Part shown: in pieces, positions 2-27,673 of the stretch | Layout: every line of letters begins with the position of its first letter | Numbering within the stretch: the first letter of the stretch is position 1 | Source: Hexactinellida sp. DTS-2022 | Taxonomy: Eukaryota > Porifera > Hexactinellida | NCBI GenBank assembly: GCA_028753945.1 | Contig: JAPNXP010000001.1 | Coordinates: 15,676,501 to 15,740,500, forward strand | Reading direction: 5' to 3' | Length of the DNA: 64,000 nucleotides | Made by a program: the position numbers and the translations under genes | The notes under the pieces: generated by a model | Database searches by the model: none | Told to the model about the DNA's origin: nothing | What the model saw: only the letters and a program-made list of their open reading frames with translations

Positions 2-2590
2 AAGGAGAAGTCATTGGAAGTAGTGGATTTTGTTAACATTATTTCGACGCTCGATCCGAAAACAACCACTGTGTTATGCTTGATTGGTAACCCAGGCTCT
101 GGAAAATCATTTTTGTGCCAATATCTAGCTCTGCTGTATGGCAATAACAAAATAACCAACTTTGAATACGTTCTATTAATACATTGTCGTAGCGAAGAAT
201 GGCATGTGATGGAAAAAACAAGAGAGGAGAAGGAAGAGAAAATTGATGAAATATTTTTACAAAACTGGTTGTTCCTTGCATTGTCAGTTGGTATCAGATG
301 GTCCAAATCTCTAGCAAAGAATATAGCGAAATCAAGAGGAGAGGGCCTGCTACTAATCATTGACGGGGCAGATGAATTCATTAAGGATGTTCCATTTAAG
401 ACTACACTGTTGTACTCGCTGCTGCAGAAACGCAGCCTGAGTAGATCCACCGTCCTACTGACTAGCAGGCCCGGTGCCTGGAGCAACATCAGGAACGAAC
501 ATGGTCAGGAGTTGAAAGTCGAGACCAACTACCAGGTGCTAGGATTCTCTCCAAAAGACAGAGACGCATACTTCAAGAAGAGAATATGTACAGCAGATAA
601 GCTAAGAGATACGAAACTGCTTTTTATCAGACACGATGAAATAAATCAACTGTCGCTGGTCCCCGTAAACGCCAGTCTATTCTCTTCTCTCTTTAACGAG
701 ACAGCTAACATCCTGTCTCAGACGCTGACAAACCTGTACACGGAACTGATACTGTACATAGTCAGGCGTCAGCTGTCTAGAATGGGGCTAAAGAGGCTAA
801 CGAGAGTCCATAAGATGTCCCAATTCCACCCATCCATCTGGAAATGCATCCGTGACATAGGCTACGAGGCATACGAGGGAATATTCCATAGAGAACTCAG
901 CACTAGAGAGGAGGACATACGCATTCGAATTGACGAGAATGAATACACCACGGAGCGACTAGCCATCATGCAGGTGCATGTCAGTATAACGAAACTAGGC
1001 CAGAGAGTGAATGTTTGGACCTTCGCTCATTTAACAATTCAGGAACACATGGCAGCTGTATACCTTAGTGACTTGAACTGGTTAAAGGAATGCGTGATTG
1101 TTAGATTTCTGGTTAGCTCTGATGAAGTGTTTGCCATGTATAGGATGGTCGTGCGATTCCTCTGCGGCCTCTTGGAAGATAGAGCTGCCTGTCTCATTCC
1201 TATCATCTGTCATCACCTCACGACAGATACAATGCCATTAATAGAACTACCTATGATTCATCAGCTCTACTATGTTACTAACCTCGTTAATATCTCCGAT
1301 TGGTTAGACTTCATTAAGTCCTATCTCCTAATATCCACATTAATAATAGAGACAAACTCTCTCCTATTCCCAAAGTATTTCCGTTGCCTAAGAGAACTGT
1401 TACCAGAGAAATTATACTTTTATTTCACGGATGCTGTGTCTCCTAACGAATGGCACTGCTTTCTGCTGTCATTGATTTACATCAAGAAACTACAAATTGT
1501 ATTTATATACACATCTCTAATCAATCCAATCCAATTCAGTTCATTACTCGAACAGCTCTCCTCCTGCTCTCTCAGTTACCTAGCACTAAGCTTCCCAAGA
1601 CAAGATTACACAACAATACAGTCCTATACTACTCTCCTATCAGCTGGTACATCCGTACACTATAAGGTTAGTATCGAACTCAGTCGGTGTGAACTAACAG
1701 AGATGTCTCCTTCCACTCCTCTCTTCTCAACACAGAACCAATTCAAAGGAAGCATTAAGTTACATCATTCCAGAGTATCGGATGAAATCCTCACTCAACT
1801 AATGAATCAGTTCTCTTATATTGAGACTTTTTCCTATGCACCGAAATCTGATTATTCTGGCTTATCTATTATCTACCCGCAATTAACTAATAACATTCAT
1901 ATTAAGGGATTGCGCATGGTGGAACTTAAATCATCTGTATCTGCAATACCTCCAGATATTCCATTTGGTCTCTCTTCTCTGCAGGAGTTATATTTGTCCA
2001 TGAATGATACATACTCAGTGCTGCCATACCTGCTTAACAACAGCAAACTAACAACTCTGTCTCTATACTCTCCTAGCATGCCTCCTAAGAGAGAATACTA
2101 CAGACACAATCTAACTGAGATTATTCGCAATAACAGCAATTCCTTGAGAGAGATACAGTTAGTATATTTAAACACAATTGGCTTCCACACCTGGACTAGT
2201 TTCCTCTCTCCCTTACAGTCCTGTCATAAACTGGTTCGTCTAGTGCTGCATAATTGTCCATTCCCTCCTAATGATATCAGTTACTGGTACACTGCCATAA
2301 TATATCTCCAGTCCCTAGTTGCCTTGAGTCTCGTTGTTATCCCAATGGGAGACACAGGATTCATGATTCTGTGTAAGAGCTTGAATCTCCATCCAGCTAT
2401 AAGGCATTTAACTATCGACAGATGCAAACTAACTAGTAACTCCTGTGAACCTATCTCAATGCTAATACACGCTCTCCCATACCTGAGACGGCTGAGAATA
2501 CACAAACCTGAGCTCTCAAATCCAGACCCTGTCCCGCTACAGTTAGTGGTACAGACAGCTGAGATGTTCTTTGTTGAGATTCAATACTAA
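2..2590 (+). CDS. NACHT-LRR receptor (NLR), copy 1, 5' end outside window
   Basis: A cytoplasmic NLR-type receptor, expected to sense ligands through C-terminal leucine-rich repeats and oligomerise through a NACHT ATPase. The frame is open from base 2, so the N-terminal domains lie upstream of the window. Visible in order are a Walker A motif GNPGSGKS near nt 90-115, Walker B LLLIIDGADEF near nt 350-380, the sensor-type stretch LLTSRPGA, the winged-helix signature FAHLTIQEHMAAVYL near nt 1020-1065, and an LRR-like C-terminal region from about nt 1500 ending in ...EMFFVEIQY. There is no intron in the visible part. It is a near-identical paralogue of the gene at 24278-27673 (about 14 residue differences in the first 435, about 55 in the last 420 by hand count). 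NLR identity is firm. The ligand is unknown, and whether the gene is complete cannot be judged. Confidence 0.9.
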   Translation, partial: KEKSLEVVDFVNIISTLDPKTTTVLCLIGNPGSGKSFLCQYLALLYGNNKITNFEYVLLIHCRSEEWHVMEKTREEKEEKIDEIFLQNWLFLALSVGIRWSKSLAKNIAKSRGEGLLLIIDGADEFIKDVPFKTTLLYSLLQKRSLSRSTVLLTSRPGAWSNIRNEHGQELKVETNYQVLGFSPKDRDAYFKKRICTADKLRDTKLLFIRHDEINQLSLVPVNASLFSSLFNETANILSQTLTNLYTELILYIVRRQLSRMGLKRLTRVHKMSQFHPSIWKCIRDIGYEAYEGIFHRELSTREEDIRIRIDENEYTTERLAIMQVHVSITKLGQRVNVWTFAHLTIQEHMAAVYLSDLNWLKECVIVRFLVSSDEVFAMYRMVVRFLCGLLEDRAACLIPIICHHLTTDTMPLIELPMIHQLYYVTNLVNISDWLDFIKSYLLISTLIIETNSLLFPKYFRCLRELLPEKLYFYFTDAVSPNEWHCFLLSLIYIKKLQIVFIYTSLINPIQFSSLLEQLSSCSLSYLALSFPRQDYTTIQSYTTLLSAGTSVHYKVSIELSRCELTEMSPSTPLFSTQNQFKGSIKLHHSRVSDEILTQLMNQFSYIETFSYAPKSDYSGLSIIYPQLTNNIHIKGLRMVELKSSVSAIPPDIPFGLSSLQELYLSMNDTYSVLPYLLNNSKLTTLSLYSPSMPPKREYYRHNLTEIIRNNSNSLREIQLVYLNTIGFHTWTSFLSPLQSCHKLVRLVLHNCPFPPNDISYWYTAIIYLQSLVALSLVVIPMGDTGFMILCKSLNLHPAIRHLTIDRCKLTSNSCEPISMLIHALPYLRRLRIHKPELSNPDPVPLQLVVQTAEMFFVEIQY

Positions 2591-2960
2591 AAATGAACAC
2601 ATTAATTCAAGAAAGTATTTATTCGTTAATTTTAACATTTTTATTTATTTTCCCACGTTAGTTCTAAATTTATACGATAGGTTGTATTGTTTCTACAAAC
2701 TAATAGATTCGAATATTGCTTTTGTTGTTAAATATGAATTAATAATGACTCTCATATCAGCCTCATTTAATACGTAATACTATACAGTGCAGTTCTCTAA
2801 AAGAGCCACTGGTTAATTGAATTATCTGTTCTCCTCTTCATTGATTGCTTGTATATTTTGTGACAACAATGACTTATTATAGATAACTACTGTGACGTAA
2901 TTTACATGGAGTACATGGATATTGTGAGAACAAATCTGAGGGGTGGGCAGAGACTATTTC
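2591..2960. repeat. 3' flank shared with the second NLR gene (duplicated segment)
   Basis: The bases after the stop codon closely match those after the second NLR gene (27674-28005), including the stretches GTTCTAAATTTATACGATAG and CAGTGCAGTTCTCTAAAAGA. The duplication therefore covered the gene plus its 3' untranslated and flanking DNA. The match breaks near 2960, where this copy has GAGAACAAATCTGAGGGGTG and the other copy has different sequence. Confidence 0.8.
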
Positions 2961-3726
2961 AGGTGGGCTGTATCTTCAAATTCCTAACTAAAATCTTATT
3001 TATCTCAAATAATCAAATCTCAAATATGTAAATACAATAATGTATAGTGAGGGAGGGAGTTAGATCTATCTGTAATTATACTAAAGGTATATAATTGGTG
3101 CCATATGCGAAACTGAACTTTCAGGGTGGGTGGGCACGGATCATGTGATATGGAAGTTACCAACTAAACACGATACAATAACTACATAACTAGCTAAAGA
3201 TAAGTAGCTTCTGGATGTCTAATATCTCAGTTTTAAGATCTCCATAACAGGAGTATTACCCATTGAATAGAAAATCTAGGAACCTGATTTCGTGAAGCTA
3301 TTTGTTCCTCTTATACGAAATTCTCATTTACCGTGTTTGTACTAACGAGCTTCTGCTGTAATTCTTAAAGGAAAAGGCAAATAAGACTACTGCATTTGTT
3401 GTTTAGGTATCTCGCCGAACTAAGATCCTGCCGTTGGGCAATAAAGGAAGGGGGCAGTGGGGGGGCAAATGTCCCCCCTCCCCTTGGATCCGCCACTGAT
3501 CTACGTATGTTCGCCTTATTGCTAATATGTTTAGCTTTAGAAAATTAGATCTGAGTAGCAACCTAAAGCAATAGCTACTTTCTATAAAAGACCACCGTTA
3601 TAACATGACACAATAATCATTCAAAAATTTCGGCAGGTTGTTACTGGACAAATGATTGCACCCCCTTAAATGCAACAGCACCTCCAGTTGCACCCCATCT
3701 TTTGATTAGCTAGCGCCGCCACTGAC

Positions 3727-4060
3727 TGGGTATAGGATGTAGATGTGCTAAGTCCATAATATCTCTAACTGCTGGTAGCACAGCTGTCTGAGTCTGCTAA
3801 TGGAAATTAAGATTATTCTCATGCACAGTATAATATCATAGAATATGAGAATACAGTATTTTTCTTTCAAGACAAATATAAATATATACAGTCGAATCCG
3901 ATTAATAGAGCCACCCGTTAACAGATTTATCCGCTTAATCGGCGATTTGACGATACCGAAAATCTCATATTAATAGGAAAGGAATAAAATCGCTGTGAAA
4001 TAAATAATGTATGAAATAATTTGATAAATAGTTGTAAAAAAATGTTACAAAACCGTCCAC
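3727..4060. repeat. Distal part of NLR segmental duplication, includes a degenerate MITE end
   Basis: This stretch matches 30700-30840 and then 31263-31430 in the flank of the second NLR gene, for example TAGGATGTAGATGTGCTAAG followed by CTGCTAATGGAAATTAAGAT. A MITE end beginning TACAGTCGAATCCGATTAAT is present in both copies and so predates the duplication. The second copy carries a Helitron-like element between these two blocks that is absent here. Confidence 0.75.
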
Positions 4061-4079
4061 ACCATTCTAGTACCTAGAT

Positions 4080-4887
4080 CAGGGGTCGGCAACCCCCGGC
4101 CCGCGGGCCAGATCTGGCCCGCGAGGCGAAATGTTCCGGCCCGCTGCTCTCTATAAATATGCTCATCATGACCTCCGATTTGTTCATTCAAATAAATCCA
4201 AATACAGTACACCCTAGTCCCTAGCTATCCGGAAGAGAGGTGTTCCGATTTAAAAAAATTCTGTTCCTATTTGTGAATTTGTATGGAATAGTCAACTAAT
4301 ATGATTATATAAGCTTCTATAAATGAGATCCTGAATTCTTGATAATCCAAACCATACAGTCCAGAGCTTTTAAATCCTAACTAAACAGTTAACATGGTAG
4401 GTTGGATGCCGGGTATAAGCACATCATCGGGAACTGCACTTAATGTGCTTATAACTGGCATGTTCTTATAACTGACATAAATTATATAGGGTAAATGTCA
4501 ACCGTTTTCCAAATAGTGTTCTTAGATCCGATATGTTCTTATAACCGGTGTGCTTATATTCGACATTTAATGTACTACCCAAATACTTCTCTAAGACATT
4601 TTTTCACAATTCCAATGTAATGTTCAAAAAAATTCCAAATTTTACGAATTCTAATTTTGGATCTGCTGTTCGGACTAGCGAGGTTCGGAAGAGGGAGGGT
4701 GAACAATATTTTTATAAATTATAGTGTGGTAACATTATTGTTATATGTCAATTCAAATTTTCTCATTATCAACAATTCTACAATGGAACAATTCGGAGTA
4801 AGACTAAAGGATGGTAAATCGCTTGGCCCGACTAATGCGGTAAATTAATCAATCTGGCCCGTAGGTTCAAAAGGTTGCCGACCCCTG
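4080..4887. mobile_element. Non-autonomous hAT element with nested insertions
   Basis: The ends are inverted repeats CAGGGGTCGGCAACC and GGTTGCCGACCCCTG, flanked on both sides by the exact 8-bp duplication ACCTAGAT (4072-4079 and 4888-4895). CAG...CTG ends and 8-bp target duplications are hAT hallmarks. There is no transposase frame. The interior holds a TACAGT-type MITE that is itself interrupted by another. Confidence 0.9.
4203..4706. mobile_element. TACAGT-type MITE (family D) nested in hAT, itself interrupted
   Basis: The left end TACAGTACACCCTAG and the right end near 4665-4706 (GGACTAGCGAGG, AGGGTGAACAA) are degenerate versions of the ends seen at 55825-56157 and 59567-59889. The middle, 4398-4572, is a different MITE (family E: GGATGCCGGGTATAAGCACA ... 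TGCTTATATTCGACAT). Boundaries are approximate because the ends have decayed. Confidence 0.6.
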
Positions 4888-5344
4888 ACCTAGATTATTG
4901 TATTAGTTTAGATTCCTTGTTTTTGGTAAACAGAGTCCATATATGAAGTCTAAAAAACTAGCCAATCAAAAAAGTACCATTCTGTCGTGTAACATTTTGT
5001 CTATGTAACATTTTGTCCAAGTAATATTCTGTCCGTAACGTTATGTCGTGTAACGTTATGTCGGTATTCCTCTGCACAAGAATGTTCATGTTGATGTCGA
5101 GTGTGTTTACTCGTTACAAGTACTTTTCCCCTGAATGATGAATGATACATGGTATTTGATTATTCCTTCATAGTAATGTTGTTGCTAATAAATTATGTAC
5201 GTACTTTTACATTCCATGGAGTGGGGAGTTTCAAGATGCGTACTGTGCTTTTAAAATATCTAGCAATGTCCCTGTACTATTACAAAGTAGACTCAAAATC
5301 TAGGTCCCGTGACCAACCTCTGGCAAGTTAAGTTTTAAGCCTGC

Positions 5345-5463
5345 GATTCCCAACCTTTTTAACCGTGGATCCCCTATAGTCATTATGTGGACCCCTTCCC
5401 ATTGACCGTAATACATCTTATGGACCCCCTACAGCAGTGGACCCAAAGTTGGAATCCACTGCT
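5345..5463. mobile_element. Short hAT-type MITE
   Basis: Imperfect inverted ends TGCGATTCCCAACCTTTTTA and AAAGTTGGAATCCACTGC bracket about 120 bp in which TGGACCCC recurs. The ends resemble those of the autonomous hAT at 38459-40798 (CAGTGGTTCCCAACC). No clean target duplication is visible. Confidence 0.55.
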
Positions 5464-5899
5464 TTAGGAAATATCTCGCAAGAAAAGCTTCCATACCGTT
5501 CTGGAAAATCTGGGCAAACTTTTTGTAGCTACAAACTCATTAAAATATATATGAATAATAAAATCATATAAGCATATTACGAAATATACTCCTTTAAGTT
5601 GCATAATCTGTGTTGTGTTTGTTTATCATCTTTTCAATCAAATCAGAACGAAATGAATAGTTTGGACTCTTCATCGCTTTTTTTATCTTCCTCATAAAGT
5701 AAAACCCGTTAAGCACAAATAGGGAACCAATGACACAGGTATGTTCAGGGGTTTATTCAGGAGCGGGCCATACGCCTAGAGGAGTATAAATTGGGATATG
5801 TTTGCGTTTAGAAGCGCTAAGACTGCCGAAAGCCCCATAGAGTAATACAAAACTAACCTTTTAGGCGTACACAATTCATATCTAGTGACCTTAGGACAG

Positions 5900-6922
5900 T
5901 TAGGAGTGTTCAATTCTACTCCTGATAATACCCTGTTCATAACCCAAGATTTGATCAACACTCAGTAGCACCCAATAATCCCGTCTTACGAAATACTCCA
6001 TTGACACAGGTATGTTGTATACACGGTTAAACCATTTCGGGTTGGTTAGAACGGTTAATACGATTGGATACAAGCCTTCAATAATGAATGCGATTAAATG
6101 AAAGAAAAAAGAAGTTAACACAACTGTGGCACCGATTTTGAATTCAAAGTGTATTTGTTTGTAATACATAACTACACTCGTATGATGGTTCTCGTGGAAG
6201 CGGGCGTCAAAATACCTTTGGTACAATAGCCGACAGAGTTTGTGAGACAACCTAATCAACCTAATATACTCATAGAAGAATAGGAATACTCCAACAACAC
6301 GCTGGAATATCAACAGCTGGACGACAGAGCTCAATAGCATAATGACTGATATTTTAACGCCGAGACGAGTAAATCCATAACAAACAGGGTGCTTGCACTT
6401 CGATGGATAGAAAGTGTAGCATTCAATGAAACACACTGTCATCATAGTGATAATGTCAAGCATGGAAATCACGACAGAGATGAAAAAACCTAACAGGAGT
6501 CTGTAATTGATTGAGATCAGATTTTGAAAATTATTTATGAACGGTTGTAAGAAATACATATGGATTTGATAATTGATTGTATTTCTTGAAATTGAGTATC
6601 CCCACACTGAGATTACGGTGACTGATACTACAATCTCAATGATGCACAACAGAATCAGCAAGAAATTTGTAGTCCGTTTTAATTTGTAGTTCCTTTCTAT
6701 ACAATTCCACGTGTTACTATCCATGACATACCTACTCTTAAACTGATACTTAAAGCTTTTCGACTTAGAATACACTTGTGATACTAAAATTACACACCAG
6801 ATTATGGATAGGATGGCCCATAGTGAGAGAGAGAGAAACCCCACGAAACCATAAATGTGTGAGAACTTGAGTGACATGGCATTCAGGATATCAAAGGTTT
6901 TTTCTTCCGTTGACTTGTTCAT
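5900..6922 (-). CDS. Multi-pass membrane protein, unrecognised
   Basis: A single open frame of 340 residues from an ATG at 6922. Five clear hydrophobic segments can be seen at roughly residues 22-48, 84-108, 140-165, 185-215 and 255-280, with basic loops between them (for example YSKSKSFKYQFKSR after the first). This fits a polytopic membrane protein, with more short hydrophobic stretches possible. There is no signal peptide typical of a type I protein and no motif I can assign to a known receptor or channel family. A seven-helix receptor is possible, but only five helices are convincing. The C-terminal tail contains a possible splice donor, so the true end could differ. No transposon motifs occur, and the codon use looks like a real gene, so I read it as a host gene of unknown function. 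Confidence 0.6.
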   Translation of the reverse strand: MNKSTEEKTFDILNAMSLKFSHIYGFVGFLSLSLWAILSIIWCVILVSQVYSKSKSFKYQFKSRYVMDSNTWNCIERNYKLKRTTNFLLILLCIIEIVVSVTVISVWGYSISRNTINYQIHMYFLQPFINNFQNLISINYRLLLGFFISVVISMLDIITMMTVCFIECYTFYPSKCKHPVCYGFTRLGVKISVIMLLSSVVQLLIFQRVVGVFLFFYEYIRLIRLSHKLCRLLYQRYFDARFHENHHTSVVMYYKQIHFEFKIGATVVLTSFFFHLIAFIIEGLYPIVLTVLTNPKWFNRVYNIPVSMEYFVRRDYWVLLSVDQILGYEQGIIRSRIEHS

Positions 6923-7291
6923 GATATTGCGCGAGACTTATTTCCATGTGTTCTATAAACTATTTATACTTGTTTGCAAGTGACTGATAACTATTAAAAT
7001 AGTATGCATAAGGATCTGACATAAATAATAGACACACATTCCATCAGTGTAGGGAAGATTGAATTTATGAAATTGAATCCTCTTCAAACATGCCTTATGG
7101 AATTGTTATGCGACTGAAAATGGATACTCAGTAAATTGTTGCTTAATCTCTTTAGCTTACTTGGAAAAGATATTGTATTTATTCAGCACATGCTGGGGAC
7201 TCATTATTTTACCATAGCACAATTGATAACTAATTAATTTTATTATACATATTTATAGCTACATGGAATTCTGCAGGAATTCTCCAGAACA

Positions 7292-7785
7292 TTTTTTTGT
7301 GGATATGGATATACATGGATATTGATAGATTTCCAAAACCTACATCAACAAAATATCCAGAAGACTGAATTTTGTACTATATAGACAAAGTTCGTCAATA
7401 TCGGTATAAGCCTTCATGTTTTTTCGCCATAGCCTTGTTTTTTTTTTAAGAGAAAATAGTATAGCAAGTAGGATAAATGAAAAAGTAATATATAAAATTA
7501 AGGCAAGTAAAATTATTCTGGAGTGACCAAAAAAATTAAGACTAGTAAATAAAATTTAATAGACGGAAAGAAATAAAGCGTGTAAAAAATGAAGTCAAGT
7601 AAAATTTAGGTGAGTAAACTAATTGGGGGTAGGACGGAAAAACTTAGGCGCATTAATTTTACACTCATTTTTAGAACCCTTGTTTGAAATATTTTCAAAA
7701 GTTCAATTATGAAATGGATTTCCACAATATCCATGGATATGACAAAAACTCGATATCCATGGATATCCATATCCACTGCAAGCCT
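7292..7785. repeat. Inverted-repeat element with GGATAT-rich ends
   Basis: The left end carries TGTGGATATGGATATACATG and the right end the complementary pattern ATATCCATGGATATCCATAT ending ATCCACTGCA. The stretch lacks an open frame and looks like a MITE or foldback element. The target duplication was not resolved. Confidence 0.55.
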
Positions 7786-7852
7786 GGTATTCTGTTGAGT
7801 TCATATCACAAACAGATATTTGTTTGACTTTTAACCAACCTTATAGCTGAGT

Positions 7853-7977
7853 CAGTGGCGGGCGAACGTGCGGTCGCCCCCCCCCAAAATCCCAAAATAT
7901 CCCAAGGTTTTATTGTATTTGCAATTAATACTAGGGTGTCGAACCCAGTTCTCCAGAAGCTCCCAGCGCCGCCACTG
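7853..7977. mobile_element. hAT-type MITE with exact 8-bp target duplication
   Basis: The ends CAGTGGCGGGCG and AGCGCCGCCACTG are flanked by AGCTGAGT on both sides (7845-7852 and 7978-7985). The family recurs at 16172-16316, and fragments lie near 3455-3498 and 3705. Confidence 0.9.
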
Positions 7978-8298
7978 AGCTGAGTTATACTTTCACAGTA
8001 TCTAAATTTAATATACTAAACATTCCTAACTACAATGGTTGGCTGGTTAAATAGTTGCTTCAACCGGCAAGGCTAAACTTCCTTTTGTCAATTAAACACT
8101 ATTAATACCTAACTTATTGATATGTAGATATCCTTTCTATGTATAATCAGATTATTTATTATCAAATTCCATTCGACAAATTCCGATAAATACTGTTAAC
8201 TACAGTTACTTCGGCTCACCTTGGTACGAGGATAGTTTGACCAGATTAAGCGGGGAACCCAATCAACCGAAATTGTGCTATTATGAGGGTAATCAAGG

Positions 8299-8478
8299 TA
8301 CAGTTGAAACCGGCTATTTTTAACACATTCTTTACACGAAAATTTGTTAAAAATATCCGATTGTTAAAAATACCCGATTTTATAACAACAACAATAATTA
8401 ATTATTTACAAGAAAATGTGTTAAAAATATCCGATTGTTAAAAATATCCGGTGTTAAAAATATCCGGTTTCAACTGTA
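8299..8478. mobile_element. TACAGT-type MITE, 180 bp
   Basis: Terminal inverted repeats TACAGTTGAAACCGGCTATT and its near complement ending CCGGTTTCAACTGTA. Inside, the motif TTAAAAATATCCG recurs several times. The TA at each end fits a TA target duplication. Confidence 0.85.
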
Positions 8479-9006
8479 TATCTAATTATGATACGCTATA
8501 ATAGAATCCGTAAAATTAAAACTCGATGTTGTGGGTTTGTTTGTGTGTTTGTTTGATTGTTTGTCCGAAATGTATTAAAGTGATGGGGAATAGAAACTGC
8601 GTTTATGTTTGAGATAGAGACTTACTTCCAGACGTTATAATAGGTAAACAAGTATGTTTATTACGAATTTCGCATTTACAAATCTATAATTAATATCAAT
8701 ATTTATTGTTGTTGTTTAGGAAAATAGGTGAACAAATTAATTAAATGCAAATATAAAATGAACCTAGAGGCTAGCTTCAACGGGTATTATAAGCAAACAA
8801 GTATGCTGATTTCGAAGTTCGAATTTTAAATTTATAATATGAATATTTATTGTTGTTGTTTATCAAAATAGGTTTGACCCGAATATTATCCAATTAATCA
8901 CAAATTTGGATTTAATTAAGCGAATTGGTGGATTGAGCCAATTCACCCAAATCTTGACAAAATAACAATATTTGACAAAGTAGTATCTATATATATAAAG
9001 TAGTAG

Positions 9007-9037
<31 letters not shown>

Positions 9038-10183
9038 CTCAGAACCATTAACTTAACAGAACCTACTAATCGTTATACTGATAAATTAATTTGGATAGAA
9101 CAGGTAATTGTATTAGGTTACACAGTACCATCTCCACTGCTCTATAACAGTACAACGAACCACGTGGTTATTCTTCTGAGAATACACAGCTTACAATGTA
9201 TGCAGATAGTATAGTCCTATCTTGTAAATGGCAGATATATTCAGTAACTGAATAATAGTACATAATACACTACTGTACGTAATTCAGTAAATCCGACAAA
9301 TCCGACAAACCTTCTGAATCTACGAATCAATTAGACATCAATTCTTACGAATCATTCTTCTGATTAAGCTTCTACAGCTGAGAAGTGAGATATCAGAACA
9401 AACAAACTGTAACAGGTGAGTTTCAAGCATCTCATTTATTTCATAAGACCAGGGGTTTTCTAGATACCAGCCAGGCATCGGTTGAAGTGCAAAGTGCTTG
9501 CAGTGTGATTCCATTTAGGTACCGGGTTGACACTTAATTTGGTGCCAGGTCTCTGACAAGATTTTTTGGCCAAAGAAATTCTGGATAAATCCTGATTTTG
9601 GTACCGTACATATTTTACCTACTTCGAATAATGCCTCATTATTGAATTATGTATTATGGCTGAGACCTTTAGGGTGCCATAAAAATTAACTTCAATAAAA
9701 AAAGTGCCGGCCAAAAAATTCCTAGATAATTCCCTGCATAAGGCACACACTAATCTCTTCTATTCAATGTTGCGACTGATAATATCAAACTATGTAAACG
9801 GTATCACAAAAAAGAGAAACCTCTAGATTCTCAAAAGAGCCTAAAGTAATTGTATGAATAATATTTTCATGCTGAATTTTACTATTTTTGCCTACTAGGT
9901 AAACCAAATTCAAATTTATTCGCCTGTACAAAACTTTGGATTGTATCATATAAAGATAACTGTGGTATTTGATATTTGCGAGCATAATCAATTTAGCGAT
10001 TCGCGGAGAAAACATGCTTAATGTTTGTATTTATTATGCTTACCTTTATTCAGAGAATTAAATATTTCTAGTTCAATCCAAAACAGAGAATAGTCATTCA
10101 ATCTCAAATATCGAACCTCAATTTGGACACAAACAAGACGAGTTAGTTGAATATTTTGTATTAAAACATTTGCTAACGTGCCG
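8479..10183. other. Intergenic repeat-rich stretch without gene
   Basis: No credible coding exon seen. It contains a (GTCT)n microsatellite at 9010-9037 just after a Helitron-like start (TCTATATATATAAAGTAG near 8986), a second such start near 8495, and a decayed repeat at 9450-9740 that resembles 30446-30650 (shared GTGCTTGCAGTG). Confidence 0.5.
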
Positions 10184-19300: not shown

Positions 19301-19440
19301 GGAACAGGATTCTGGTAGAGTCCAGATACGATGGTATTGGCTGGCATCACTTGGTCTTCAAGCCCCAACTTCATAAGTGTTTTTCCGATCCATGACAGAT
19401 GGTTTCGCTTCAGTGTCAAACACCACTGCTGCCATTTTCA
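16400..19440 (-). mobile_element. Decayed Ty3/gypsy-type retrotransposon (pol remnant)
   Basis: On the - strand, pol-like fragments appear in the canonical order protease, reverse transcriptase, RNase H, integrase. A degenerate aspartic-protease site reads FDTEAKPSVM near 19400-19440, with E in place of the usual G. Reverse transcriptase shows MPFGLCNSQATFQRLMDNIL and YVDD at 18479-18600. RNase H-like YIEADASCEGVAEVLLQIG lies near 18000-18060. The integrase core and C-terminal part (DGWV, HPEE, LTFGRQPRAPIG) lies at 16414-17018. The frame changes repeatedly, stops intervene, and MITEs have inserted, so it cannot be active. The order protease-RT-RNase H-integrase separates it from Ty1/copia. 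I could not find long terminal repeats, a primer-binding site or a clear gag, so the true ends are unknown. Confidence 0.85.
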
Positions 19441-20562
19441 GCCACCTTCATCCTGATTGTGACAGCGTCTTCCGCGTCGACAACTCTGTCACATAATAAG
19501 TGTATTATACAGCCATTTGTAAATACGCTCCTAATCCTGGTCCTATTCGATTTTCATACGCCTAAATCATTAATTAATGTTACGGTATAGCAGAGGATTC
19601 CAAATTTTAGCGCCCCTAAATTCAAATTATCCAAAAATCATGCTCCAAAAGGACCGTCTCGCGCTCCTGAATAATTCCTTGGTCATATTTCTTCGGCATA
19701 TATTGGTGATCTAGCAACAAACCCTTACTTTTGTACCCTCTCTGAGTCTCTGTGGATATCTCGGTCCTGTAATACGTGTACCCGCTGTCCTTGAACAATT
19801 GCTCCCACTGTGATCTTGCTCCATTAATTAATCATGTAATATAATTTATTAAGGTGCTGCCGAGTGATGACTACAAAGTATAATCTAATGATTATCTGTA
19901 AGATTGTGTATAAATTTCGCATACAACTCTATATGGGAATGTGTTGTTGTTAGTGTCTTCCCGCGTCATCTTAATACCTTTCTCCTGTTAAACATTATGT
20001 ATTTCAAGGATAAGCATTAAAGAAATCTTTTTAATCGACAACAATTATCAACCTGCAAATATAGCTAGAATCCATGTTTATAATTACTTTAGAACCTCCC
20101 CACTTTGTAGAAAGGAAACCTTTTAATGAAGTTGAGGCCAGGATTAAATTATTTCTGTTTCAAAAGATTGAATCGCTTCCATTTGTCACGTTGTTAGCAT
20201 ATTCCGTTTCAATTCCAGAAAATTCAACCCCTGAAACGATTTTTGGGAGCATCTTACCCGTCAAGACTGAGTTTATCTCAGAATAATCAAAGGGGACTTT
20301 TGAAGAGTTTTGAAGTGAGTTAAGTTAATTTCTCGAATATATTTTTCTACTGCCCGGGTAGTTGGTTCACCATTAGACAATATCTCTGTAATTTCTTAAA
20401 TAAAAATCTCTGGCAGAGGGGAATTCGTGAACTTTTGTAAATTACTGTGAGGTCGGTATGCTTCGTCCGATATGCAATTTGTCAGGAATTTCATCCAACC
20501 GTTAACAAGCCTGTGTTTATTTCCCAACTGTAATGCAGCTACATCCAGTAATGCCTAGTCGA
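19441..20562. other. Possible retroelement 5' remnant, no intact gene
   Basis: The - strand between about 20100 and 20550 reads as broken coding-like sequence (for example LGNKHRLVNGWMKFLTNC), resuming beyond the 3-kb hAT insertion at 23609-23780. It could be gag of the retroelement downstream or a dead host exon. No motif decides. Confidence 0.35.
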
Positions 20563-21258
20563 CAGGGGCGTCGATTTGAAAAGAAGATTGGGGGGGGCAA
20601 CATCATGTTGTCTCATATTAGGTTGAAAAGCGTAGTTTCGCCCTGAGCTAGAATCGGTCATTACGTTAGGGTTGGCAGATTACCAAATTCCCGAACCCGG
20701 ACAAAATTTAGACTTTACAAAATATTCAAGTTACTTTAACTAAAAAGTGGCGTATCTCTCTGAAACTGGGGGGCAAGCCTAAATTCTTCGGGCACGATTA
20801 TCTTTCGCGAGATAATAAGTAGTATTTTAAATGAAATATGTTTGTCAATAGACAAACTTACTATTAATGGAACATAACTAACATTAAATGTTTGCTTTAT
20901 GATAGAAAACACCTTTCTAATGGAAATACATAACCTATAGTGGGTGGGACAATTTGTATTTTTGCATTGGTTGAAGCAATGAAAGTTTCTTCACAGATTG
21001 TTTTATTGTACAGGCCCGGCGGAAGCAAAATTAAGGTGGTACGGAAAAATTATACAGAGGAAAAAACTGGTACGGCAATTTCCACGACTGCGAATAGGTA
21101 GCTATAACAATTCTGAAAAAGCTATGTTGACTAATTCATTGAATAATTCATTAATAATTCAATGATTAATGAATTATTCATCTTAGGAAAAAAGTATGGC
21201 AATTGCCGTACCTGTCATACCAGCTGCGCCGGTCCTATTGTAGCATACACTTTAACAA

Positions 21259-21774
21259 TACAGTGGAACCCCGCGTATCGGGGCACCTCCGTCCATGCGC
21301 TCAGCGCCCCGATACGAGGGAGTGCCCCGATATGCGGGGTTCTAAGAGAACTCCAATATGTTTGGTTAAAACAATTAAGTTAGCACCTACACAACAAATC
21401 ATACACATCTAGTCAAAACCTAGAGTTAAGGCTGATATTTAAGCAGTACTACACATTACAATTTCACATTATACTTTACCTACACTAGGAGTCACAAATC
21501 TATGATATTCACGGAATTCTTTTTTTTTAAAACTCCCTCGATTACCTCAGCACGAGTCTCTAGCGTGAGTGGGTGACGCTTATCGGCCATTACAAAGAAT
21601 ACTAAGCTGCTCAAAAGTAAAAAGCATGTTACTCAAGAGAAAATACTCTTCGGTGGAGTGCCCCGATAAGTGAATGGCGCCCCGATACGCGGGGTTATTT
21701 TTAATGGGGAAAAAGCAAATTCCCAACCTACTGCCCCGATACGCGCATGCCCCGATATGCGGGGTTCTACTGTA
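21259..21774. mobile_element. TACAGT-type MITE with CCCCGATACGCGGGG subterminal repeats
   Basis: It begins TACAGTGGAACCCCGCGTAT and ends ATGCGGGGTTCTACTGTA. The unit GCCCCGATACGCG occurs several times near both ends in both orientations. A broken copy lies at 23259-23311. Several short proline-rich frames here are by-products of the repeat. Confidence 0.85.
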
Positions 21775-21781
21775 CCAACTT

Positions 21782-22571
21782 CAGGGCCGGATTAACCCAT
21801 GGGCAACCGGGGCAACTGCCCCGGGGCCTCCACCACCAAAGGGCCTCCACCACCAAAGGGCCTCCACCACCAAAGGGCCTCCACCACCAAGGTTGTACTT
21901 CATTTTTCATGGACAATTGTAGTGGAAGGAGTTAGGGGCAGGGACGTCACCACGGGGGGACATAGGGGGGAAATGCCCCCCTGGTAGAAATCCTCGCCCC
22001 GGGGCAATGCTCTTCTGCTAAAATATATTGAACTATTTTATTCCTCTGATTCATTGATGCTATTGATTTCAATTTAATGAGTTCACACTTCCCAATCCAT
22101 TTGAGTCATATGCCTGTATGAGGCTCCAATTTTCCCCTGTACATTGGTCAAGATCCCTAGACACCTCAAATTTTTTCTCTCGCTCGCTTGTCTAAAATGT
22201 AAATCTACACTTTATTGAAACGAATTACACTGACCACAAAGCATTTTATTATGTGTGTCAAGATATACATAAGAACATGTTATTTATTCTTATTAAGTTT
22301 GACATAAATCAAAATAATCACTTAGAAACTCAGATACTATTGAAATATATAGTTTGTACAGAGAATCCGTGTACGCTTGAATAGGGTATTAATTTACACA
22401 AAACAAAATGCTACATTTTAGGGTTAGGCATTTTTTATGTAGTATTCGACAAACAATCAATAATTTATTCAAACTAGTAATCCATATACAAAAATCCTAG
22501 CAACTTCACTGGTTAGGGGCCTCCACAACACTGGTTGCCCCAGGGCCTCCACCTCTTTAAATCCGGCCCTG
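21782..22571. mobile_element. hAT-type element (GGCCGGATTAA ends), 790 bp
   Basis: The ends CAGGGCCGGATTAA and TTAAATCCGGCCCTG are flanked by the exact duplication ACCAACTT (21774-21781 and 22572-22579). It carries four copies of the 17-bp unit GGGCCTCCACCACCAAA at about 21824-21892. A 151-bp relative lies at 41758-41908. Confidence 0.9.
21824..21892. repeat. 17-bp minisatellite, four copies
   Basis: GGGCCTCCACCACCAAA is repeated four times without interruption inside the hAT element. In each frame it gives proline/threonine-rich peptides, which are artefacts. Confidence 0.9.
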
Positions 22572-24095
22572 ACCAACTTCGAAACAAATAATGGAATTAT
22601 ATAGGTATTTAATTAATATAACACGACTCGTTAATCTCTGAATACTAATTGGCTTGGGTATTGTCGCTTCATTGAATGATGGGTCTACTAAATGATCCTA
22701 AATTTTAAGCAATTGCAGGACTGCAAATGTTATAAATTGGGTATACAACCAGAAACCGCATTACCTTACGTAATTTAATCCCTTTTGTTGAAATAATTTC
22801 TATAAGATTTACTTACCTTCCTTATGTATAGTTAACAGTGGATTCAGTGTATTAATTATTTACAGAGTATGTTATGCAACTCTCTTTGAATTGTGAGTTA
22901 CATTTAATCCCATTTGGTATGCATATTTTAGTAATTGAACCCCAGTGCATGCACTTAGTAACCAAATTCATAGAATCTGCTCGCTTATTCGACAAAGTTA
23001 TAAATTTGAAGAAGAGTATTTAATTTCCGGGCAATCAAACTGTCCGTATCCGTATGAATCCCTGCAATACAAATTATACTTGGAAGAACTATCCAGATCA
23101 GTATGTGATCAATACAGAGCTAGTAAACCTACCCTGTTAGGAACATAACATTTGTTGTTTAGTACTTGGGTCATTCCATGCCAAATAGCCCAATTAAAAA
23201 AAATTCCCCATGTGATCATTTCAGTTTTTGCTGAAATTTCATCAAAACACTTTCTTATACGAGGGGTGCCCCGATACGCGCATGCTCCGATATGTGGGAT
23301 TCTACTGTACAACCGAGCGAGCGTTGCGAGCGGGAAAATTTTTTAGACGTTCAAGCCCTAGAGAACTTATAACAATTAACATCATTGAAACAAATCATAA
23401 GTTTCAAAGTTTAATTTGTGGGTCTTGTCTTAACATATCACGCATTATTAATAAATAATTTCACGACACCAATAAATTACTAATTTAGTGGAAATAAAAA
23501 TGTAAAGTGCGCCAAATAATGGGGGGGGGCGAAATGACAATCTCGCCCCCCCTGTATTGACATTGGGGGGGCATTCGCCCCCCTGCCCCCCCAGGATCGA
23601 CGCCCTTGCTAGTCGAATGTTTAAAATGTTCCTCAGAGCTTGGAGGATATACCAAAATATCGTAGACGTATCTTTCGGCACTCGGCCGCACTCTTCAAGG
23701 CGTTCCACATTCCGATAGTATCACTGTCATCCCTGTCATCTCGCGGGTAGGCGTAGTCCAATAGGCGCCTTCGATATCAACCTTATAAAAGAAACAACTT
23801 GCAGTTTATCGAAAATACTGATAAACTCGATAAAGTTATGGATGCAACAAACTGTATTAAATATTAACCTAGTATGGGAACGTGGGTATTATGCACTTGT
23901 ACCGTACTGTCCATAAGTTTCGTCTCTTTCACGGTTTGAACATCCATTACGCATGGATGGGTTAGTTACCATTCAGTTAATTATTCATACAAAAATAGTT
24001 AAAGGCTTAATTAAAAATTAACATACCTGTAAATACTACAATGAGATAATTAGTAAGATAAGTGTGATGCAAATAAATTGCACAGAGGAAAGTAC

Positions 24096-24236
24096 CAGGC
24101 CTGTAGCCAGAAATTAGTAGTGGGTGGGCTATGAGAATTGTAGGGGCGGCTGAGTCTCGTATGATATGAAAACCCTAGGTTTGTTAAACGGATTTAATTG
24201 AACAGTAAGACTCAGCCCCCCCTGGCTAGAGGCCTG
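24096..24236. mobile_element. hAT-like MITE just upstream of the second NLR gene
   Basis: The ends CAGGCCTGTAGCCAG and CTGGCTAGAGGCCTG are complementary over most of their length and bracket 141 bp. No clear target duplication is seen. The element ends 41 bp before the ATG of the NLR gene and so lies in its 5' leader or promoter. Confidence 0.7.
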
Positions 24237-24277
24237 GAGAAGACTAGTTTTAATATGCACATTTATTATAGATTACA

Positions 24278-27200
24278 ATGACAGAGAGTAATTTTGAAGA
24301 AATAAAGTTAATGAACGAATTCGCAAACTCGTTAACGCAAGAAAACATAAGAATGCTACATGAAAAGCTCGGCACACCTTCCGCAATCGTTGAGAAAACA
24401 GGAACTAGTCAGATAGATTTCTTATTTGCATTGAAATATGATTGTCCCAATTTTGATCCGGTGGGATTGTTCGATTCACTGGAAAGCATTGGGAGAAACG
24501 ATCTCATTGCAATTGCAAACAAACTACCATGGATCCGTAGCAAACTTGGAAATGTACAAGAACAAATTGGAGCTCCATCCGCTGAAACATTCGTTAGTTT
24601 GTTGAGAAGAGAAGTGAAGATGGGTCAATGGAAGTTAATCATAGGCAGTGGAATGTCAGTGAGAGTAACAAAAGATTTAAATTTTGATACAGCGTTCAAG
24701 AAGTCTATTGAGGGAGGGATTATAACTCCAAACTTAGAACAACTGTGTGACGCAATGATAGCTGTAGAAAGACACGATGTTGTAAAACAAGTGCAAAAGC
24801 ACGCACATGTGTTCCATGGCATGAACAAAACAACTTTTCAAACATTATTAATGGAGGAACTAGAAAGCGACGACAGCGGGGAACAAGAGAACTGGGTTGT
24901 TAAGCTAAGAGAATACACGAAACAACAAAATGAAAAGGTGTATCTTCGCTTTGATGATGACGAGGCAATTTCTCTCGATTCAGTATACACTCCTCTAACG
25001 GTTGTCAAGGAAATAGTAATGCAGTCGAGTGATGATACCAGTCTTAATGAAATAGATTTCCTAAGAACAATGAGCGAAAAGGAGAAGTCATTAAAAGTAG
25101 TGAATTTTGTTAACATTATTTCGACGCTCGACCCGAAAACACCCATTGTGTTATGCTTGATTGGTAACCCAGGCTCTGGAAAATCATTTTTATGCCAATA
25201 TCTAGCTCTGCTTTATGGCAATAACAAGATAACAAACTTTGAATACGTTCTATTAATACATTGTCGTAGCGAAGAATGGCATGTGATGGAAAAAACGAGA
25301 GAGGAGAAGGAAGAGAAAATCGATGAAATATTTTTACAAAACTGGTTATTCCTTGCATTGTCAGTTGGTATCAGATGGTCCAAGTCTCTGGCAAAGAATA
25401 TAGCGAAATCAAGAGGAGAGGGCCTGCTGCTAATCATTGACGGAGCAGATGAATTCATTAAGGATGTTCCGTTTAAGACCACACTGTTGTACTCGCTGCT
25501 GCAGAAACACAGCCTGAGTAGATCCACCGTCCTACTGACTAGCAGGCCCGGTGCCTGGAGCAACATCAGGAACGAACATGGTCAGGAGTTGAAAGTCGAG
25601 ACCAACTACCAGGTGCTAGGATTCTCTCCAACAGACAGAGACGCATACTTTAAGAAGAGAATCTGTACAGCAGATAGGCTACGAGATACGAAAATGCTTT
25701 TTATCAGACACGATGAGATAAATCAACTGTCGCTGGTCCCCGTAAACGCCAGTCTATTCTCTTCTCTCTTTAACGAGACAGCTAACATCCTGTCTCAGAC
25801 GCTGACAAACCTGTACACGGAACTGATACTGTACATAGTCAGGCGTCAGCTGGCTAGAATGGGGCTAAAGAGGCTAACGAGAGTCCATAAGATGTCCCAA
25901 TTCCACCCATCCATCTGGAAATGCATCCGTGACATAGGCTACGAGGCATACGAGGGAATATTCCATAGAGAACTCAGCACTAGAGAGGAGGACATGCGGA
26001 TTCGAATTGACGAGAATGAATACACCACTGAGCGACTAGCCATCATGCAGGTGCATGTCAGCATAACGAAACTAGGCCAGAGAGTGAATGTTTGGACCTT
26101 CGCACATTTAACAATTCAGGAACACATGGCAGCTGTATACCTTAGTGACTTGAACTGGTTAAAGGAATGTGTGATAGTTAGATTTCTCGTTAGTTCAGAG
26201 GAAGTGTTTTCCATGTATAGGATGGTCGTGCGATTCCTCTGCGGCCTCTTGGAAGATAGAGCTGCCTGTCTCATTCCTATAATCTGTCATCACCTCACAA
26301 CAGATACAATGCCATTAACAGAACTACCTATGATTCATCAGCTCTACTATCTTACTAACCTCGTTAATATCTCCGATTGGTTAGACTTCATTAAGTCCTA
26401 TCTCCTCATATCCACATTAATAATAGAGACAAACTCTATCCTATTTCCAAAGTTTTTCTATTGCCTAAGAGAACTGTTATCAGAGAAATTATACTTCTAT
26501 TTCAGGGATGCTGTGTCGCCTAACGAATGGCACTGCTTTCTGCTGTCACTGAATTACATCAAGAAACTAAAAATTGTATTTATATACACATCTCTAATCA
26601 ATCCATTCCAATTCAGTTCATTACTCACACAGCTCTCCTCCTGCTCCCTCAGTTACCTAGCACTACACTTCATAAGACAAGATTACGCAACAATACAGTC
26701 CTATACTACTCTCCTATCAGCTGGTACATCCGTACACTATAAGGTTAGTATCTCACTCACTCACTGTGAACTAACAGAGATGTATCCTTCCACTCCTCTC
26801 TTCTCAACACAGAACCAATTCATTGGAAGTATTATGTTACATCAAGCTAAATTATCGGATGAAATCCTCACTCAATTAATTAATCAGTTCTCTTATATTG
26901 AGAATTTTTCCTATGCACCGAAATCTGATAATTCTGGCTTATCTTTTATCTACCCGCTATTAAGTAATAACATTCATATTAAGGGATTGCGCATGGAAGA
27001 ATTTAAATCATCTGTATCTGCAATACCTCCAGATATTCCATTTGGTCTCACTTCTCTGCAGGAGTTATATTGGCACATGAATGATACATACTCAGTACTG
27101 CCATACCTGCTTAACAACAGCAAACTAACAGCTCTGTCTCTATACTCTCCTAGCATGCCTCCTAACAGAGAATACTACAGACAGAATCTAACTGGGATTA

Positions 27201-27673
27201 TTCGCAATAACAGCAATTCCTTGAGAGAGACACAGTTATTGCATTTAAACACAGTTGGCTTCCACACCTGGACTAGTATCCTCTCTCCCTTACAGTCCTG
27301 TCATAAACTGGTTCGTCTATCACTGAATAGTTGTCCATTCCCTCCTAATGACATCAGTTACTGGTACACTGCCATAAGATATCTCCAGTCCCTAGTTGCC
27401 TTGAGTCTCTCTGCTATCCCATTGGGAGACCCAGGATTCATGATTCTGTGTAAGAGCTTGAATCTCCATCCAACTATAAGGCATTTAGCTATCAGCAGAT
27501 GCAAACTAACGAGTAACTCCTGTGAACCTATCTCAATGCTAATACACGCTCTCCCATACCTGAGACGGCTGAGAATACGCAAACCTGAGCTCTCAAAACC
27601 AGATCCTACCCCGCTACAGTTAGTGGTACAGACAGCTGAGATGTTCTTTGTTGAGATTGTATACAGAAACTGA
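24278..27673 (+). CDS. DED-like/NACHT/LRR receptor (NLR), complete copy 2
   Basis: A single-exon gene of 1131 residues; the ATG follows TTTATTATAGATTACA, which could be a 5' UTR splice acceptor. The N-terminus has two helical death-fold-like stretches: about residues 10-88 (LFDSLESIGRNDLIAIANKL resembles helices 5-6 of a death effector domain) and about 105-182 (NLEQLCDAMIAVERHDVVKQ). NACHT follows with Walker A GNPGSGKS at 296-303, Walker B LLLIIDGADE at 383-392 and LLTSRPGA near 419-426. The winged-helix signature FAHLTIQEHMAA is at 608-619, and an LRR-like region runs from about 780 to 1110. By family knowledge such proteins are cytosolic sensors that recruit DED or death-domain partners on oligomerisation. 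The partner and ligand here are unknown. NLR assignment is secure; calling the N-terminal domains tandem DEDs rather than Death or CARD is tentative. Confidence 0.92.
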   Translation: MTESNFEEIKLMNEFANSLTQENIRMLHEKLGTPSAIVEKTGTSQIDFLFALKYDCPNFDPVGLFDSLESIGRNDLIAIANKLPWIRSKLGNVQEQIGAPSAETFVSLLRREVKMGQWKLIIGSGMSVRVTKDLNFDTAFKKSIEGGIITPNLEQLCDAMIAVERHDVVKQVQKHAHVFHGMNKTTFQTLLMEELESDDSGEQENWVVKLREYTKQQNEKVYLRFDDDEAISLDSVYTPLTVVKEIVMQSSDDTSLNEIDFLRTMSEKEKSLKVVNFVNIISTLDPKTPIVLCLIGNPGSGKSFLCQYLALLYGNNKITNFEYVLLIHCRSEEWHVMEKTREEKEEKIDEIFLQNWLFLALSVGIRWSKSLAKNIAKSRGEGLLLIIDGADEFIKDVPFKTTLLYSLLQKHSLSRSTVLLTSRPGAWSNIRNEHGQELKVETNYQVLGFSPTDRDAYFKKRICTADRLRDTKMLFIRHDEINQLSLVPVNASLFSSLFNETANILSQTLTNLYTELILYIVRRQLARMGLKRLTRVHKMSQFHPSIWKCIRDIGYEAYEGIFHRELSTREEDMRIRIDENEYTTERLAIMQVHVSITKLGQRVNVWTFAHLTIQEHMAAVYLSDLNWLKECVIVRFLVSSEEVFSMYRMVVRFLCGLLEDRAACLIPIICHHLTTDTMPLTELPMIHQLYYLTNLVNISDWLDFIKSYLLISTLIIETNSILFPKFFYCLRELLSEKLYFYFRDAVSPNEWHCFLLSLNYIKKLKIVFIYTSLINPFQFSSLLTQLSSCSLSYLALHFIRQDYATIQSYTTLLSAGTSVHYKVSISLTHCELTEMYPSTPLFSTQNQFIGSIMLHQAKLSDEILTQLINQFSYIENFSYAPKSDNSGLSFIYPLLSNNIHIKGLRMEEFKSSVSAIPPDIPFGLTSLQELYWHMNDTYSVLPYLLNNSKLTALSLYSPSMPPNREYYRQNLTGIIRNNSNSLRETQLLHLNTVGFHTWTSILSPLQSCHKLVRLSLNSCPFPPNDISYWYTAIRYLQSLVALSLSAIPLGDPGFMILCKSLNLHPTIRHLAISRCKLTSNSCEPISMLIHALPYLRRLRIRKPELSKPDPTPLQLVVQTAEMFFVEIVYRN

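Follow-up and report, generated by a model that had tools for sequence, protein, structure and literature searches.

Do the LRRs of an animal NLR carry the mark of selection on a ligand-binding face? The question is raised by two genes in a 64,000-nucleotide stretch of DNA from the sponge Hexactinellida sp. DTS-2022 (GenBank assembly GCA_028753945.1, contig JAPNXP010000001.1, forward-strand positions 15,676,501 to 15,740,500), which we call the window. Direct ligand reading by animal NLR LRRs is often doubted. A sequence-only reading of the window had proposed that the two genes, close to identical in the NACHT region, differ in their LRRs through diversifying selection on such a face. We followed this proposal from the gene pair to the family to which the pair belongs.

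Two NACHT-LRR genes and their divergence

The features of the pair are as follows.

2..2590, + strand: gene 1 (locus L009), NACHT-LRR receptor, 3' 862 codons; open frame, cut by the window start
56..610, + strand: NACHT domain of gene 1, family residues 286-470 (Pfam NACHT, E 3.9e-20)
611..1300, + strand: helical region of gene 1 between NACHT and LRR, residues 471-700 (weak NLRC4_HD2 match, below cut-off)
1301..2587, + strand: LRR domain of gene 1, residues 701-1129, diversifying by dN/dS, site models and register
24278..27673, + strand: gene 2 (locus L010), full NLR in one open frame, 1131 aa
24278..24838, + strand: head of gene 2, probable tandem DED and old module, residues 1-187 (from matches of family heads)
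24965..25117, + strand: FISNA-like segment of gene 2, approximate, residues about 230-280, N-terminal to NACHT (from sub-cut-off matches in family heads)
25133..25687, + strand: NACHT domain of gene 2, residues 286-470 (Pfam NACHT, E 1.1e-19)
25688..26377, + strand: helical region of gene 2 between NACHT and LRR, residues 471-700
26378..27670, + strand: LRR domain of gene 2, 16 ribonuclease-inhibitor-type repeats

Gene 1 is complete in its fetched locus, where the frame begins roughly 800 bases ahead of the window start. The NACHT domain exceeds the curated cut-off of 26.7 bits in both genes (72.8 bits in gene 1 and 71.4 in gene 2). Both also end in an LRR solenoid whose sequence matches NLRP chains and ribonuclease inhibitor, the ribonuclease inhibitor match (E 2.3e-24) giving the type of repeat; the Pfam LRR models stay below cut-off (LRR_8, 14 bits vs 27, in gene 1 only). 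FISNA matches are below cut-off in 8 of 10 heads scanned, and the gene 2 head itself is unmatched. The family matches of P0001 and P0002 (E up to 1) include no B30.2/SPRY domain.

The differences between the two genes had been put at about 14 in 435 NACHT-region residues and about 55 in the last 420; we count 14 over residues 268-702 and 57 over 712-1131, and the motifs quoted for the pair are present in both translations. At the codon level the NACHT domains differ by a dS of.143 and a dN of.012 (omega.08; helical region.16), and the LRR domains by a dS of.060 and a dN of.073, so that silent divergence is lower in the LRR and dN about six times higher. This contrast exceeds chance. The changes had been described as leucines kept and neighbours changed: 3/57 differences fall on the motif leucines (L1, L4, L6) and 20/57 on repeat positions x5, x7 and x8. 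As a qualification, 37/57 lie outside x5/x7/x8, in portions of the LRR whose omega is about.5-.9 depending on the clade. Omega for the pair is 1.21 over the LRR and 2.15 at x5/x7/x8, where 3.4% of codon bootstraps are at or below zero. As evidence of selection, the gene pair alone is only suggestive.

A family of single-frame receptors

Both genes are members of a NACHT-LRR family of at least 94 copies, in which each gene is one long reading frame: the 112-Mb genome holds 94 NACHT matches, 75 of them in frames at least 1000 aa long, and the family is spread across 12 of 18 contigs. We fetched the loci of 40 of the 94 matches. Those with broken frames (L021, L030, L036, L039 and L042) were dropped, and five intact ones were omitted from the selection tests, L023 as near-identical to L022 and L026, L016, L035 and L037 as diverged. 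The tests thus cover 30 genes in five clades, A to E, of 6, 11, 6, 4 and 3 members. Codon models were fitted with purpose-written code rather than PAML or HyPhy, and any codon column gapped in any member was removed from the site models. Gapped columns over residues 286-1129 number 0 or 1 in A, B and E, 14 in D and 25 in C.

A Pfam DED match is found in 8 of 12 family heads (best E 1.7e-8), the gene 2 head being unmatched, and a search with a profile of all 12 puts cFLIP and PEA-15 first, weakly (E.02-.13). Across the genome, 16 of 29 DED matches lie in NLR-like frames of over 1000 aa, all 16 below cut-off; the genome also includes a frame of 200 aa whose DED passes the cut-off and one of 444 aa that carries four stretches of DED. 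There are also 64 Peptidase_C14 matches, exons counted singly. By these profile matches the family head is probably a tandem DED module.

The same genome has 32 Peptidase_C1 matches, of which six stretches were fetched. An active-site motif is present in five, with cysteine in each, and no serine-type silicatein was found among these five. One fetched stretch reads CGSCYAFSATGALEGQ, which we take to be reminiscent of silicatein.

Between head classes the heads differ by a dS from.4 to saturation, as against.07-.25 for the LRR, the helical region and NACHT. The 5' flanks behave in the same way, being unalignable in 63/64 pairs between head classes and alignable in 22/27 pairs within a class. 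In four clades the NACHT-LRR body is much younger than the head and the 5' flank. Bodies thus appear to have been homogenised within each clade, with diversification renewed on their binding face.

Positive selection in the LRR

A neutral model fails for the LRR of every clade. The M1a/M2a likelihood ratio statistic is 71.6 in A, 266.3 in B, 136.1 in C, 112.3 in D and 20.4 in E, with an extra site class at omega 5 to 15. For NACHT the statistic is 0 to 1.3, and neutrality is rejected in 0/5 clades. Neutral simulations of clade A exceeded 5.99 once in 40 and reached at most 9.2. When the LRR was cut into four blocks, each with its own tree, the summed statistics for clades A to D were 84, 249, 158 and 117. 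A codon bootstrap that uses no tree, pooled over x5/x7/x8 of the five clades, gives an omega of 2.08 and a dN-dS of.18 (.12 to.24); the check set beforehand, whether dN/dS stays at or below 1 at these sites, thus comes out above 1. A raised mutation rate fails as an explanation because LRR dS resembles NACHT dS: among clade-A pairs it is lower in 8/15 and higher in 7/15, and the pooled values are similar.

Posteriors from M2a are unsafe where the likelihood ratio is not significant and were therefore restricted to the LRR fits, in which omega of the selected class is 5 or more. Across the 40 neutral simulations a total of 1024 sites passed a posterior of.9, and the helical region of clade E has 12 such sites despite a statistic of.6; in our reading, false high posteriors arise when the extra class is placed near omega 1.

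The helical region gave a statistic of 28.8 in clade B, due to one site (693), and 13.6 in clade C, where eight sites exceed.5, four of them at 691-697 on the LRR border and four at 473, 477, 574 and 661. The hot sites of these two clades suggest that the LRR surface starts at 691-697.

Hot sites follow the repeat register

Sites with a posterior over.5 were called hot and placed on the register LxxLxLxxN, with repeat positions across clades counted as cells. In gene 2 the L6 residues of repeats 1-8 are 716, 742, 769, 796, 827, 854, 879 and 906, and those of repeats 9-16 are 932, 955, 987, 1016, 1044, 1072, 1100 and 1127. Two strands serve as examples.

27404..27415, + strand: hot strand of repeat 13 of gene 2, residues 1043-1046 (SLSA of ALSLSAIPLGD); 1046 is hot in 5/5 clades
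27494..27499, + strand: hot strand of repeat 14 of gene 2, residues 1073-1074; 1073 is hot in 5/5 clades

Hot cells number 29/80 at x5, 47/78 at x7 and 32/82 at x8, together 108/240 vs 100/1881 elsewhere (odds ratio 14.6, or 16.2 once four uncertain repeats are removed). Sliding the register lowers the hot rate from.45 to.02-.33. The register was fixed before the site positions of clades B-E were seen, and these clades alone give 86/192 vs 81/1501 (odds ratio 14.2). Moreover, 28 positions are hot in at least three clades; shuffles gave 3.1 when free and 20.7 within register class, and 0/2000 reached 28.

By their place in the repeat, x5, x7 and x8 are predicted to be the exposed strand positions of a ribonuclease-inhibitor-type LRR. 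Exposure was taken from the repeat register, homology to ribonuclease inhibitor and a partial model rather than from a full-structure computation; the model is usable for about the first six repeats only and agrees with LRR folds generally. A second check, that variable sites might be buried, turned out in favour of exposure, the buried positions L4 and L6 being hot in 1/80 and 2/80 cells vs 47/78 for x7. Rapid variation is thus found on what the register assigns as the LRR binding surface, and the proposal of diversifying selection on a ligand-binding face is supported.

Discussion

Our preferred reading, to which we give a probability of roughly 0.77, is that of an expanded NLR family in which selection re-tunes the ligand-binding LRR face, bodies are homogenised, old heads are kept, and signalling passes through DEDs and caspases. 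The receptor would run in one frame from a probable tandem DED through a FISNA-like linker, NACHT and helical domains to 16 LRRs. Its concave LRR face (x5, x7 and x8 of each LxxLxLxxN) may directly contact variable, possibly microbial or other non-self ligands and would be under recurrent diversifying selection, with purifying selection acting on the head, the NACHT switch and the leucines of the scaffold. Within a clade, NACHT-LRR bodies may be homogenised through gene conversion or ectopic exchange, and retention of distinct old promoter-plus-head modules would then leave a rapidly re-tuned sensor on conserved signalling heads. Ligand binding would lead to oligomerisation through NACHT, with DED adaptors and caspases then drawn in by the DED heads.

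A rival to body conversion is that recombination near residues 176-226 exchanged the promoter-plus-DED heads. The 3' flanks are indeed common to head classes (51/55 pairs in B, C and D, and 51/64 with A), and in the head tree the heads of B and E do not follow their clades: B heads fall into more than one group, interspersed with those of A and of L035, and E heads split, the L040 head joining C. However, the heads of A, C and D each form a group (support.999,.945 and.529), which leaves these heads without a visible donor in a different clade, and 9/9 clade-A pairs that combine two head classes differ in both flanks. We consider head swapping possible but doubtful.

Rather than pathogen defence, diversification of the face could also serve self or allorecognition among individuals, or the discrimination of symbionts from food bacteria. 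Fungal HET genes are driven by this very signature (PMC1805685); large numbers on 12/18 contigs and DED-type heads, on the other hand, suit broad surveillance equally. We regard a role of this kind as less likely than not.

Relaxed constraint, in which a duplicated LRR drifts freely while NACHT stays conserved, would agree with a pairwise LRR omega near 1 (.58-1.21 in the 15 clade-A pairs) and with the.47-.89, by clade, of the LRR once its leucines and x5/x7/x8 are set aside. It is already disfavoured, and in our view very improbable: models capping omega at 1 are rejected in every clade, omega exceeds 1 at x5/x7/x8, motif leucines remain constrained (.2-.75), and identical positions are hot in separate clades. 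Least probable of all is that pasted paralogue patches or recombination inflate the apparent amino-acid change. In favour of this are a PHI signal of exchange for the LRR of clades A and B, the unequal ages of heads and bodies, and an LRR dS that is the higher in 7/15 clade-A pairs. Against it, patches would carry silent changes and LRR dS is lower in the other eight and similar when pooled, conversion is unable to pick codon positions x5/x7/x8, C and D show strong selection with no PHI signal within the LRR (p.46), and the result holds with separate block trees.

Plant NLRs carry NB-ARC, whereas the present family has NACHT. The plant hvNLRs are alike in that predicted specificity residues cluster on LRR surfaces (PMC8226289), but they vary among alleles within species and our family among paralogues of one genome. 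Arabidopsis RPP8 likewise combines intergenic gene conversion with selection in an NLR family (PMC6771003), in a plant, at three loci and from polymorphism data. The fungal HET-D/HET-E family pairs concerted evolution with positive selection on few interaction-surface residues per repeat (PMC1805685); there WD repeats are exchanged unit by unit, whereas here the repeats are LRRs with 0-25 gapped columns. Other sponges have 135 NLRs in Amphimedon queenslandica (PMC9505182) and 126 NACHT+LRR genes in Dysidea avara, again a large, partly clustered expansion with near-identical neighbours and many members lacking a recognised N-terminal domain ('NLRX'; PMC12909245). The terms 'positive selection', 'diversifying', 'intron' and 'exon' are all absent from the main text of that report, and the present family differs in its tandem-DED-like heads and unequal body and head ages. 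Zebrafish NLR-B30.2 genes are also a large animal family with gene conversion differing among domains, but positive selection there falls on B30.2, which was concluded to be the recognition module rather than the LRR (PMC4852459); here it falls on the LRR, and no B30.2 is listed.

Close to an even bet, and offered tentatively, is the wider view that an early-branching animal keeps a germline repertoire of tandem-DED NLRs whose clade bodies are repeatedly reset by gene conversion, in which selection returns to the same ribonuclease-inhibitor-like concave residues, and whose promoter-plus-DED heads are old and maintained separately, an animal counterpart of the hvNLRs with the LRR rather than an added domain as direct reader. 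As selection marks the same exposed strand positions in five replicate clades of one genome, binding tests can be aimed at individual residues and receptors. The combination of an old signalling head with a body that is young, homogenised and diversified on its face would explain in concrete terms how an animal that lacks adaptive immunity renews a large recognition repertoire.

The gene pair and its family

The window, C1:15676501-15740500 of a 112.4-Mb genome in 18 contigs (C1 is contig JAPNXP010000001.1), holds two paralogous NACHT-LRR (NLR) genes:

Gene 1 (L009), window 2-2590, forward strand: single long frame ending in a stop, its 5' side cut by the window start
Gene 2 (L010), window 24278-27673, forward strand: single long frame ending in a stop

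Both carry a NACHT domain well over the Pfam cut-off and a C-terminal region related to the LRRs of ribonuclease inhibitor and NLRP proteins. A NACHT search of the genome gave at least 94 scored matches among 149 candidates, a lower bound; by manual count, open frames of at least 1000 aa surround 75 of the 94, and one of the 75 has a stop inside the match. Forty of the 94 loci were fetched, 35 of them with frames longer than 1000 aa, and identity clustering resolved clades A, B, C, D and E plus single genes, the pair belonging to the six genes of clade A (81-93% identical). Sponge NLR expansions are already described in excerpts of earlier work (PMC12909245; PMC9505182), and the term "positive selection" is absent from the main text, as excerpted, of the Dysidea paper among them (PMC12909245). 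A clade-B trio (L022, L023, L025) is 98-100% identical, reflecting either very recent copies or conversion, and one further gene, L037, is nested in clade D by its NACHT and helical region (branches.01) and has a strongly diverged LRR (branch.56), possibly a replacement of the LRR.

Elsewhere in the window, two overlapping frames at 38790-40645 resemble DUF4371 and the hAT dimerisation domain weakly, below the cut-offs, and are probably a decayed hAT-like transposase. A minisatellite at 47721-48021 (17-base unit, 17.6 copies, 97% matches) gives rise to long frames that are spurious. A 340-aa open frame at 5900-6922 on the reverse strand resembles a multi-pass membrane protein by eye and has no Pfam match at 0.01.

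Positive selection at exposed LRR positions

A near-identical NACHT beside a divergent LRR had been read from the sequence (about 14 and 55 differences), and we measured 14 differences in residues 268-702 and 57 in 712-1131. Between the two genes dS and dN are.143 and.012 in the NACHT and.060 and.073 in the LRR, and across the 15 clade-A pairs omega is.05-.22 in the NACHT and.58-1.21 in the LRR. Since LRR dS falls below NACHT dS in 8 of these pairs and above it in 7, the contrast stems from replacement changes and not from the silent rate.

The sequence-only reading had attributed this to diversifying selection on the LRR, and neutrality was indeed rejected there in all five clades using purpose-written codon site models (GY94 type, F3x4; M0, M1a, M2a, M7, M8a and M8, plus a grid method).

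LRR selection tests by clade (M1a vs M2a LRT; one-ratio omega of the whole LRR)
A: 71.6 (p 3e-16); 1.08
B: 266.3;.97
C: 136.1; 1.33
D: 112.3; 1.63
E: 20.4 (p 4e-5); 1.23

The NACHT gave no positive-selection signal in any of the five clades (LRT 0 to 1.3), nor did heads (1-95) and linkers (96-285) in clades A-D or the helical region in A, D and E; the helical region reached 28.8 in B, from the single site 693, and 13.6 in C. In a neutral control for clade A, one of 40 simulations exceeded 5.99, with a maximum of 9.2. PHI detected exchange in both parts tested (180-700 and 701-1129) in A and B, and only in 180-700 in C and D. With the LRR cut into four blocks with separate trees, summed LRTs were 84 (A), 249 (B), 158 (C) and 117 (D); three single blocks, 811-915 in A and 701-810 in both C and D, were not significant on their own.

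To place the selected sites, a 16-repeat register was set from the LxxLxLxxN motif and a ribonuclease-inhibitor alignment, with AlphaFold strands used for repeats 1-6; L6 lies within a predicted strand in all six, with modest confidence for repeat 1. Clade A hot sites (posterior above.5) had already been seen at that stage, and the site positions of B-E had not. Pooled over clades, hot sites fall on x5 (29/80), x7 (47/78), x8 (32/82) and x3 (12/80), and rarely on the leucines L1 (2/80), L4 (1/80) and L6 (2/80). Thus 108 of 240 x5/x7/x8 positions are hot against 100 of 1881 elsewhere (odds ratio 14.6), a ratio that is 16.2 without the four least certain repeats, 15.8 by the grid method at.9, and 14.2 in clades B-E alone (86/192 vs 81/1501). 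When the register is shifted by 1 to 13 positions, the hot rate drops from.45 to.02-.33. Twenty-eight positions are hot in at least three clades, with 1046, 1073 and 1128 hot in all five; shuffles within register classes average 20.7, and none of 2000 reaches 28.

A dN/dS at or below 1 at the variable sites was looked for as well. Tree-free codon bootstraps place omega at x5/x7/x8 between 1.7 and 3.4 by clade and at 2.08 pooled (dN-dS.18, interval.12 to.24), compared with.43 for the leucines,.68 for the remaining LRR and.21 for the NACHT and helical region. For clade B alone the x5/x7/x8 interval just reaches zero, and for the window pair alone 3.4% of bootstraps are at or below zero. Positive selection acts at exposed LRR strand positions in five clades. 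Ribonuclease inhibitor grips its ligand through these strand positions, and x5/x7/x8 correspond when the family LRR is aligned with it.

Old heads and young bodies

Genes of one clade that belong to different head classes have a dS of about.4 up to saturation over residues 1-200, and of.07 to.25 in the NACHT, helical region and LRR; for genes sharing a head class, dS is.05 to.56 along the whole length. In clades A, B, C and D the change occurs near residues 176-226. Of 27 pairs that share a head class, 22 have alignable 5' flanks and 24 alignable 3' flanks; of 64 pairs from different head classes, the counts are 1 and 51, and the 13 pairs without alignable 3' flanks include all 9 from clade A. 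In four clades (L009-L048) the NACHT-LRR bodies are much younger than the probable tandem-DED heads and 5' flanks to which they are joined. In a head tree the A, C and D heads each form one group (support.999,.945 and.529); the B heads do not, A heads and the L035 head lying among them, and the E heads are split. The simplest reading is that these are old duplicates whose bodies have been homogenised within each clade. That promoter-plus-head modules were swapped instead is the rival account, less probable but with appreciable weight.

Heads and caspases

RxDL marks DEDs. Aligned across 12 family members, head residues 1-187 fall into two halves, and each half contains a near-constant R.D[LV] motif. 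A first DED scan matched 7 of 10 heads, all below the cut-off, the gene 2 head being without a match; in the set of 12 heads, the Pfam DED model hits 8 (best E 1.7e-8). In a search with a profile of the heads, the second half finds cFLIP and the first half PEA-15 (E.02-.13); an ankyrin death domain and an unrelated regulator come next. Judged from sequence likeness, the head is probably a tandem DED. The genome has 29 DED matches, two over the cut-off, and 16 of the 29 lie in frames of more than 1000 aa resembling these NLRs; a 200-aa frame elsewhere carries a DED above the cut-off. One stretch, L055, holds two neighbouring frames with DED matches:

C15:936000-940000: four DED stretches, and a bacterial death-like match overlapping them, in a frame of 444 aa; next to it a frame of 369 aa with a single DED match below the cut-off

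Counted exon by exon, there are 64 Peptidase_C14 matches in the genome. At C1:15939172-15942628 (15.94 Mb), near the NLR cluster, a caspase-type Peptidase_C14 match and a DED match below the cut-off share one strand at a distance of about 2 kb, possibly a DED-caspase gene.

Implications

In extracts of the corresponding papers, plant hvNLRs (PMC8226289) and fungal HET genes (PMC1805685) follow the same principle as here, as do zebrafish NLRs, but on another domain than the LRR (PMC4852459). The architecture of the family and its contrast in constraint are established by our data. The concave LRR face may read variable ligands, upon which the NACHT would oligomerise and signalling would run from the DED heads to adaptors with DEDs and to caspases.
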